This document shows, one piece after another, positions 62,930-64,000 of a stretch of DNA of 64,000 bases; the first letter of the stretch is position 1, and every line of letters starts with the position of its first letter. Both the position numbers and the translations under genes were made by a program. This stretch comes from an uncultured Planctomycetota bacterium. Lineage in GTDB: Bacteria; Planctomycetota; Phycisphaerae; UBA1845; UTPLA1. The stretch is taken from positions 124,001 through 188,000 of the forward strand of contig CAADGE010000023.1 in the NCBI GenBank assembly GCA_900696465.1, given 5' to 3'. Below the pieces are notes generated by a model, which made no database searches, was not told where the DNA came from, and saw nothing but the letters and a program-made list of their open reading frames with translations.

Positions 62930-63439
62930 TCAGCAAGCGGCACGATCCAACTGAACCAGCGAGAAAAACTCACCAAAGCCAGTCCGCTCGGCGGCTGCCG
63001 TGGAATGGGGCCATTTCATCAGAACCTGCACGTCCCTTGCGAGCGTGGCGGCGCCTTGTTGAGCCGCGGCGGGTGCGGGATTGAGCGACACCCGATCACC
63101 ACCCTCGATCGAAGGCGTCGAGGCGCTGGCCGTAAAGTTCAGAATCTCGCCGGCATCGGTGAGGAGCGTCCCCTGGCGGGAGGCGGGACGATAGACAAGG
63201 ACATAACCCTGCATGAAGGCGTACTCCGGAGTGGTTCCTGCAAATGAGATTGCACCAGGAATCCATTCCTCGTCGCGCGGTTCGGCGAGATGTGGTCCGC
63301 GCTGCCTCCATGTCGAATATGTACCCGAAGCAGGATACCTTGCCACGAACGGAATGCACGCAAAAAATCGGGTTGATGCAGCACCGCGCGCTTTGCGATC
63401 ATGTAATGCACGGGCAATTTCCGGGATCAGCCCTGTCAC
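62930..63439 (-). CDS. Possible hypothetical protein (uncertain)
   Basis: An open frame of 169 codons from GTG 63439. The downstream half looks coding (AEPRDEEWIPGAISFAGTTP, EYAFMQGYVLVYRPASRQG, ILNFTASASTPSIEGGDRVS), whereas the first about 45 codons have poorer third-position GC. It might be a small gene with a later start (ATG 63211 is in frame) or a decayed remnant. No family or signal peptide was recognised. It lies divergent to the cysteine attenuator. Confidence 0.4.
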   Translation of the reverse strand: MTGLIPEIARALHDRKARGAASTRFFACIPFVARYPASGTYSTWRQRGPHLAEPRDEEWIPGAISFAGTTPEYAFMQGYVLVYRPASRQGTLLTDAGEILNFTASASTPSIEGGDRVSLNPAPAAAQQGAATLARDVQVLMKWPHSTAAAERTGFGEFFSLVQLDRAAC

Positions 63440-63490
63440 TGCTGGTCGGCCAGGATTCAGTTGATTATCAGACCCCCAGATTGCCGGGGC

Positions 63491-63519
63491 TTGAACCGGC
63501 CATGTTGAATCACTAGGAT
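63491..63519 (+). promoter_or_regulatory. Promoter of the cysH leader
   Basis: TTGAAC (63491-63496), 17-base spacer, TAGGAT (63514-63519). The expected start lies near 63526, i.e. 0-3 bases ahead of the leader ATG at 63529, so the leader peptide would be leaderless or nearly so. Confidence 0.45.
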
Positions 63520-63528
63520 AGATGTTGT

Positions 63529-63654
63529 ATGAGCCACCGCGAAGTACTCATGTCAGCTCGAACGCGACCCGCTTCCACGGGGCTCGGGACGAGCGCGCCG
63601 TGGGTGAGCTGTTGCTGCTGTTGTTGTCGATACGGCAGAGGAGGAACCTCCTGA
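63529..63654 (+). CDS. Polycysteine leader peptide (attenuator uORF)
   Basis: A 41-codon frame: ATG 63529 to TGA 63652. Its product ends SCCCCCCRYGRGGTS. Codons 63610-63627 are TGT TGC TGC TGT TGT TGT: six cysteines in a row. The rest is Arg/Ser-rich (MSHREVLMSARTRPASTGLG). It lies between a promoter and an intrinsic terminator ahead of cysH, as expected of a leader whose translation reports Cys-tRNA supply. The frame one base over, from ATG 63522, would encode six leucines, but the predicted start site excludes it. Little or no ribosome site precedes ATG 63529. Confidence 0.7.
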   Translation: MSHREVLMSARTRPASTGLGTSAPWVSCCCCCCRYGRGGTS

Positions 63655-63745
63655 AGACAGCCGCACAACTCTGAAGTTCGCCTCGTAGCGGACGAAGTGT
63701 TTTAAAACGGCTCTCGGGAAGGTTCCTGAGGGCCGTTCTTTTTTT
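63639..63745 (+). promoter_or_regulatory. Cysteine-responsive transcription attenuator
   Basis: Alternative pairings are visible. Protector: AGGAGG (63639-63644) with CCTCCT (63647-63652). Antiterminator: AACCTCCTGAAGACAGCCG (63645-63663) can pair with CGGCTCTCGGGAAGGTT (63708-63724) with about 17 pairs and small bulges. Terminator: 63706-63737. The antiterminator strand overlaps the leader stop codon (63652-63654). A ribosome that reaches the stop would cover it and let the terminator form; one stalled at the cysteine codons would cover the protector's 5' half and leave it free. Low cysteine should therefore switch cysH on. Confidence 0.65.
63706..63745 (+). terminator. Intrinsic terminator of the cysH attenuator
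   Basis: 13-base stem (two G-T wobbles) between 63706-63718 and 63725-63737, loop AAGGTT, followed by C and seven T (63739-63745). It lies 42 bases ahead of the cysH start and 51 bases after the leader stop. Confidence 0.85.
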
Positions 63746-63750
63746 ATATC

Positions 63751-63767
63751 GCACGACATCGTCGTGC
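63751..63767 (+). promoter_or_regulatory. Palindrome between terminator and cysH
   Basis: GCACGAC-ATC-GTCGTGC, a perfect 7-base inverted repeat ending 6 bases before the AAGGAG ribosome site. Candidate operator or hairpin affecting translation. Confidence 0.45.
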
Positions 63768-63787
63768 ATGGAGAAGGAGTCGTACCG

Positions 63788-64000
63788 GTGGGACTGCCCG
63801 TACTTCAGGGTGCACAACGTCCCCGTGTCGGTGAATCCAGCCATCCGCAGGAACTGGTGGAGTGGAGCTTGAAGCACTTCGCCGGCCGACGGATGGAAAT
63901 GAGCACGTCTTTCGGCATGGAGGGCTGCGCGCTGATCGACATGTACGCCCGACACGGCGTGCCGCTGGTCGTTTTCTATCTCGACACTATGTTTTTCTTC
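63788..64000 (+). CDS. cysH: Phosphoadenosine/adenosine phosphosulfate reductase (N-terminal part, cut by window edge)
   Basis: Reduces (P)APS to sulfite in assimilatory sulfate reduction. The frame starts at GTG 63788 with AAGGAG (63774-63779) eight bases upstream and runs to the window edge, 71 codons. After LPVLQGAQRPRVGESSHPQE, the segment MEMSTSFGMEGCALIDMYAR is the PP-loop (SxxFGxEG) and VPLVVFYLDTMFFF is the next family block. The C-terminal half, which would tell APS from PAPS use through its Cys motifs, is missing. Regulation by the polycysteine attenuator just upstream fits a cysteine-synthesis gene. Confidence 0.88.
   Translation, partial: MGLPVLQGAQRPRVGESSHPQELVEWSLKHFAGRRMEMSTSFGMEGCALIDMYARHGVPLVVFYLDTMFFF

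Follow-up and report, generated by a model that had tools for sequence, protein, structure and literature searches.

Classical attenuators of the trp and his type combine a leader peptide with control codons, an antiterminator that competes with a terminator, and masking by a ribosome at the leader stop codon. Mycobacteria reportedly carry polycysteine leaderless short ORFs, in work attributed to Canestrari in 2020. The available portion of a 2010 survey places leader-peptide systems in Proteobacteria and Actinobacteria and adds a His leader in bacilli (PMC2965389), ilvB1 of M. tuberculosis serves as an example of the classical type in excerpts of a further paper (PMC13236596), and LeuL1 of Streptomyces lividans is presented, in the accessible passages of its description, as a leaderless leader without a typical terminator (PMC8079986). 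The mycobacterial poly-Cys leaders are treated as regulatory Cys-rich sORFs in the excerpted sections of Smith 2022 (PMC9094748); the accessible part of Seliverstov 2005 (PMC1262725) gives no conserved hairpin able to serve as terminator for mycobacterial cys leaders, and PMC13236596, in its excerpts, describes translation attenuation as the mode of control for the cysteine genes in M. smegmatis. The uORFC-8-2 motif found before cysS in Rhodobacterales is, in the partial text of PMC8632094, a candidate Cys-sensing transcription attenuator with a uORF and an intrinsic terminator, two tandem Cys codons, a cysteinyl-tRNA synthetase target and an alphaproteobacterial host range. A search of open-licence papers turned up no Cys leader described for Planctomycetota or Gemmatimonadota. 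Ribosome-mediated attenuation and poly-Cys leaders are already known; what is new here is a predicted poly-Cys attenuator that stands before cysH in these phyla, works through a terminator and probably has a leaderless start.

The window, a 64,000-nucleotide stretch of a planctomycete genome (4.14 Mb, 96.8% complete), ends in a cysH gene preceded by such a leader. A sequence-only reading had proposed a 41-codon frame with six Cys codons and a following terminator, acting as a cysteine-sensing attenuator of cysH with classical geometry, and direct reading found the frame and all six codons at the positions given below. The run of six TGY codons occurs once in the source genome.

63491..63519, + strand: promoter-like sequence, TTGAAC (63491-63496), a 17-nt spacer and TAGGAT (63514-63519)
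63529..63654, + strand: leader peptide frame of 41 codons, MSHREVLMSARTRPASTGLGTSAPWVSCCCCCCRYGRGGTS, from ATG 63529 (9 nt past the -10 box) to TGA 63652-63654
63604..63664, + strand: predicted protector structure, from the fold of this one sequence
63610..63627, + strand: six Cys codons, TGT TGC TGC TGT TGT TGT, the proposed sensing site
63645..63663, + strand: antiterminator 5' arm (region 2), AACCTCCTGAAGACAGCCG, including the leader stop TGA 63652-63654
63706..63745, + strand: intrinsic terminator, hairpin 63706-63737 (regions 3 and 4) and seven T at 63739-63745
63788..64000, + strand: start of cysH, which continues beyond the window as L032:3788-4501

This locus resembles the mycobacterial leaders in that a short upstream frame has a Cys run close to its stop and cysteine-pathway genes downstream; to judge from the title of the mycobacterial paper and from the promoter position here, a leaderless start may be common to both. 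The likeness drawn in the sequence-only reading calls for some qualification: in the accessible texts the mycobacterial leaders lack a conserved terminator and are described as translation attenuation, whereas the planctomycete design has a recurrent intrinsic terminator with a matching antiterminator, in a different phylum. Because of that terminator, we did not class the planctomycete leader as mycobacterial in type. As far as the excerpted descriptions go, the mycobacterial poly-Cys leaders are closest by sensor, and uORFC-8-2 is closest by mechanism and amino acid; in contrast to the latter, the leaders described here have 4 to 7 Cys in 7 residues (46/50 loci), a cysH operon downstream, hosts in other phyla and a probable leaderless start. 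Unlike trp and his attenuators, the element would sense cysteine, its region 2 includes the leader stop in most loci, and its leader probably starts at the mRNA 5' end.

We examined the parts of the window locus individually. The promoter-like sequence was too weak to be listed in a stricter promoter scan. The terminator hairpin has 14 pairs (-23.9 kcal/mol), one more than the 13-base stem counted earlier, and its run of seven T was as described; its 5' arm is the partner of the antiterminator. AGGAGG was read directly at 63639-63644. In the predicted protector, the pairing partners of the Cys codons are ACGGCAG and GACAGC, and GGAGG pairs with CCUCC; an AGGAGG/CCTCCT pairing had been proposed from the sequence. 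The ribosome-free fold of 63601-63745 contained both protector and terminator, and by this computation the protector would conceal the antiterminator arm if the ribosome is absent. A small hairpin (63676-63693, GTTCGCC..GCGGAC) lies between the antiterminator arm and the terminator and may draw the antiterminator and terminator arms together. An Rfam scan of 63000-64000 returned four matches, none at gathering score, and the best of them, ctRNA_pGA1 (33.7 bits versus a gathering score of 45), was taken as a hairpin resemblance.

We then compared the locus with its relatives. CysH was searched in 114 genomes of the window's order and was present in 62, with 63 matches, for all of which DNA was taken. 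Fifty-two were close (50-100% identity), and 50 of these had usable upstream DNA; L080 and L082 were excluded (upstream missing, or an assembly gap), and L042, which begins at a contig end, was kept with merely 241 nt upstream. Frames with 4 or more Cys per 7 residues lay within 450 nt upstream of 46 of the 50 close cysH genes, compared with a mean of 0.65/50 in dinucleotide shuffles (20 rounds), which excludes a chance Cys run; the opposite strand gave 5/50. The sequence-only reading had staked its proposal on the Cys codons being kept in close relatives, and they are. No such cluster was found upstream of the 11 divergent cysH genes (30-38% identity; <450 nt upstream in 3/11). Family f7 of the same order (L085-L094) has divergent CysH at 33-38% identity, and no Cys leader was found there. 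The four close loci missed by the threshold (L045, L049, L073, and L076) had smaller Cys clusters and then, by eye, a terminator-like hairpin. Across the 46 loci, the maximum number of Cys in 7 residues was 4 in 13, 5 in 15, 6 in 14, and 7 in 4, and the distance from the end of the Cys cluster to the end of the stop was 21-39 nt in 39/46. Outside the Cys cluster the leader peptides were highly divergent, and the four leader peptides tested matched no NCBIfam family; several terminate in GGAS or GGTS, the site of the RNA motif GGAGGAnCGTCCTGACGG. L083, whose terminator was the weakest of all (-12.4) and whose Cys cluster is ill-placed, may owe its leader to chance.

By script, a terminator was found after the leader in all 46 planctomycete loci (52/53 leader loci overall, including Gemmatimonadales), its 5' arm beginning 25-61 nt past the leader stop in the planctomycete set. 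It reached -15 kcal/mol or better in 45/46, while shuffles gave a mean of 1.6 and a maximum of 6/46 (10 rounds). In alignment A2, which holds 30 of the 46 loci (sixteen were omitted as near-copies or odd), 92.4% of the terminator pair cells were paired, compared with 31-59% when slid and 86.0% in column shuffles (0/500 as high), and 7 pairs were changed on both sides. The antiterminator helix joins CCUG(A)CGGG at the leader stop, the bulged A coming from UGA, to CCCGCAGG in the terminator 5' arm. Its pair cells in the same 30 loci reached 74.0% (slid, 27-49%; column shuffles, 71.3%, 8/500 as high), 6 pairs were changed on both sides versus 4.0 in column shuffles (46/500 as high), and the outer pairs, at columns 61 and 62, were unpaired in 18 and 24 of the 30 rows. 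Covariation support for the antiterminator is modest, and its position and energy weigh more: in 33/46 loci the sequence best able to pair with the terminator 5' arm overlapped the leader stop (shuffles, mean 18.1, maximum 26; 100 rounds), with a mean energy of -18.3 versus -14.0 in shuffles. Taken singly, 19/46 loci reached p <= 0.05 for arm complementarity, and at the window locus the 2:3 complementarity was moderately better than in shuffles (p = 0.075). Two mutually exclusive structures, which the sequence-only reading had expected from folding, were both found in the window RNA, which folded as the antiterminator when cut before the 3' arm (-28.4 kcal/mol) and as the terminator when started past the stop codon (-34.8 kcal/mol), and both were kept across the 30 aligned loci. 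Of the protector, antiterminator, and terminator geometry, all parts fold; the terminator is clearly conserved, the antiterminator less strongly so. The parts, their order, their conservation and their complementarities can be read directly from these loci.

These data bear on an alternative suggested by M. smegmatis, in which the poly-Cys leader would act on cysH translation, with a stalled ribosome exposing the cysH ribosome-binding site. The poly-Cys leader and the probable leaderless start do resemble the mycobacterial case as set out in the excerpts of PMC13236596, but this alternative is made unlikely by the strong T-tailed hairpin past the leader in 46/46 planctomycete loci, far rarer in shuffles, by the overlap of the best partner of its 5' arm with the leader stop in 33/46, and by the distance from leader stop to cysH match, which ranges from 75 to 366 nt and is a poor fit to a fixed pairing at the cysH start.

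The conserved Cys cluster, the terminator and the complementarities support instead, with high confidence, the view that transcription of the cysH operon is attenuated by way of a leader ribosome in response to cysteine, and very probably more of the sulfur-assimilation enzyme is made only under cysteine shortage. Leader translation, stalling, read-through and the cysteine response are what we infer for its operation. From the promoter position, transcription would begin a few bases 5' of the leader ATG, and a ribosome would load at the near-leaderless end. When Cys-tRNA is abundant, the ribosome would pass the Cys codons, reach the UGA and mask the stop-codon region, in which case the terminator would form and transcription would stop ahead of cysH. 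When Cys-tRNA is scarce, the ribosome would stall on the Cys codons, about ten codons 5' of the stop, and the free stop-codon region would pair with the terminator 5' arm, such that the polymerase would continue into cysH and the sulfite reductase gene. If no ribosome is present, the Cys codons are predicted to pair downstream and termination would be the default, as computed for the window's sequence.

We modeled the stalled and stop-codon states with a 15-nt forward ribosome footprint and scored how the terminator 5' arm pairs immediately before synthesis of the 3' arm. The mean fraction of the 5' arm paired upstream was 0.77 when the ribosome sat on the Cys cluster, compared with 0.34 when it sat at the stop. 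The difference, 0.43, compared with 0.09 for shuffled linkers (maximum 0.16, 30 rounds), and it was at least 0.3 in 34/46 loci versus 8.5 when shuffled; the stall-over-stop advantage was absent in L060, L074, and L077. In the full-length equilibrium fold of the window locus, the terminator was favored in both states (0.82 stall, 0.97 stop), so the switch would have to be kinetic, as in classical attenuators. An exclusive antiterminator, free on stalling and masked at the stop, is thus predicted by the model for the locus set, and weakly for the window alone.

The conserved RNA motif GGAGGAnCGTCCTGACGGC and the accompanying hairpins would also be expected of a riboswitch or T-box-like ligand-sensing RNA, with the Cys codons arising only because the RNA sequence is conserved. 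We regard this as highly improbable, since Cys is kept despite varied layouts (CCCCCC, CCACCRCCC, CACCCVCCC, and others) with both TGT and TGC in use, the window frame runs uninterrupted between the promoter-proximal ATG and its stop, and no Rfam family reached gathering score in 63000-64000.

To look for a regulon, we searched the 114 genomes of the order with a covariance model, scoring 30 candidates per genome. Among the matches listed, full-model matches at E <= 4.5e-10 were found in 41/114 genomes, one each, of which 30 had trained the model and match by construction; 40 of the 41 lay immediately 5' of cysH, and the remaining one was at a contig end (G102:C34). Weak full-model matches at cysH were also listed in G002, G068, G095, G109, and G113. 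An ordinary terminator of an upstream transcript next to a chance Cys run, a non-regulatory reading that could appeal to the abundance of terminators in these genomes and to the weaker model matches listed, most of which were the terminator half alone, is scarcely credible given the constant order of Cys cluster, promoter and terminator ahead of cysH throughout the order and the 40/41 listed full-model matches directly 5' of this gene, including the 30 training genomes. The attenuator may have a further target beyond cysH in these genomes.

A search of 392 genomes drawn from the phylum (9 candidates scored in each) gave four matches at E <= 1e-6 besides the window. Three of them span model positions 37, 38 or 45 to 125 only; the fourth, in G145 (L194), was rejected as a Cys attenuator because by eye the terminator was present and the Cys leader absent. 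A pattern of five Cys codons was rejected as a sole marker because it is too common, with matches in 17/17 family genomes and often more in the reversed control. From the six-codon and five-codon patterns together, 31 loci were translated, with neighbors listed for seven; three of the seven were cysH leaders (L001, L010, and L016), and no cysH was seen by eye near the other four (L006, L009, L013, and L014).

We further analyzed the start of the leader transcript. The layout TTGAnn, 16-19 nt, TAnnnT, ending 4-11 nt before an in-frame start, was found in 35/46 planctomycete leaders, compared with a mean of 0.2 and a maximum of 2 in shuffles of these regions, and also in 7/7 Gemmatimonadales leaders; the 11 misses among the 46 include L042, at its contig end. 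Transcription usually starts 6-8 nt past a -10 box, which would leave a 5' UTR of 0-4 nt, too short for a Shine-Dalgarno site. The window transcript is expected to start at about 63526-63528, and the promoter position suggests that the leader mRNA is probably leaderless. For Planctomycetes, the excerpted text of PMC5397173 reports, for one genome, a leaderless or S1-type bias among non-SD genes.

Codon choice also set the leaders apart. TGT and TGC were used 185 and 73 times in leaders versus 63 and 225 times in cysH genes, and the TGT share was greater in the leader than in the cysH gene at 45/46 loci. The contrast was small in the window genome (leader TGT 4/6 versus 17/47 in six other operon genes). 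The UGU preference could reflect slower decoding, structure avoidance, or pairing needs.

A GTDB scan with the CysH alignment returned 68 loci, labeled Phycisphaerae, Phycisphaerales or Planctomycetota, a Pirellulaceae-like group, eight Gemmatimonadales, and some odd labels. The closest GTDB CysH was from the Planctomycetota isolate PLA2 (L096, 85%). Odd labels, such as 'Alphaproteobacteria' for L111, indicate that MAG labels can be wrong. With L135 omitted (2 nt upstream), a three-Cys leader (ACCCM ... TT stop) was present in 7/7 Gemmatimonadales-labeled cysH loci with upstream DNA (L122, L127, L132, L134, L136, L140, and L142), about 300 nt 5' of cysH, behind a promoter of the form TTGACA-17-TAnCnT, 6/7 nt, ATG. 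A GCCCGCAGG..CCTGCGGGC-like terminator was found in 6/7 by script, and the same hairpin was seen by eye in L122. Since three Cys are common in shuffles (about 10/50 shuffles of planctomycete regions reached this level), the assignment of the Gemmatimonadales leaders rests on their shared layout. Among the Pirellulaceae-like loci, L144-L147 and L161 had, by eye, a T-tailed hairpin and a small frame rich in Cys 5' of cysH, both lying about 300 nt ahead of the CysH match in L144-L147; upstream of most other cysH genes in this group, no frame reached 3 Cys per 7 residues.

A tree of 89 CysH rows, with a midpoint root only, many weak inner forks and four long-branch rows, united the Gemmatimonadales in one clade (100/98) within a fork shared with 41 planctomycete rows (98/82). 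The simplest reading is that cysH and its leader may have moved between phyla by transfer. A joint reading would have a leaderless poly-Cys attenuator traveling with the cysH operon between Planctomycetota and Gemmatimonadota, leaderless 5'-end ribosome loading sufficing for a classical attenuator, an origin independent of the mycobacterial system, and the minor codon UGU sharpening the stall. We put it forward tentatively, as somewhat more apt to fail than to hold, and do not rate it higher because of the MAG labels and the weak codon contrast in the window genome.

The predicted attenuator offers a concrete, testable regulator of how sulfur is assimilated by a planctomycete lineage that is represented here by metagenome assemblies alone, and it would extend ribosome-mediated attenuation to Planctomycetota and probably to Gemmatimonadota. 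If the leaderless start is true, attenuation would run without a Shine-Dalgarno step, ribosomes entering at the very 5' end of the RNA. In their divergence, the many leader copies amount to a series of natural mutants of the attenuation mechanism.

Finally, we annotated the genes under the putative attenuator. Visual comparison with related genes makes GTG 63788, preceded by GGAGAAGGAG, the most likely start of cysH, in preference to 63764. Its product matched the NCBIfam phosphoadenylyl-sulfate reductase family (1.6e-69), with APS or PAPS as the substrate, and a sulfite reductase gene follows downstream (3.6e-217); both act in the pathway leading to cysteine, the amino acid proposed to be sensed, as expected of genes behind an attenuator. 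Further 3' of cysH are hemA and genes for a HemC/CbiX-like protein and a uroporphyrinogen-III methyltransferase/synthase protein, as well as hemB and hemL. L032:7463-9229 is a single frame whose N-terminal half is CbiX-like (below cut-off) and whose C-terminal half is HemC (above cut-off), and it is possibly a chelatase-hydroxymethylbilane synthase fusion within the cysH operon.
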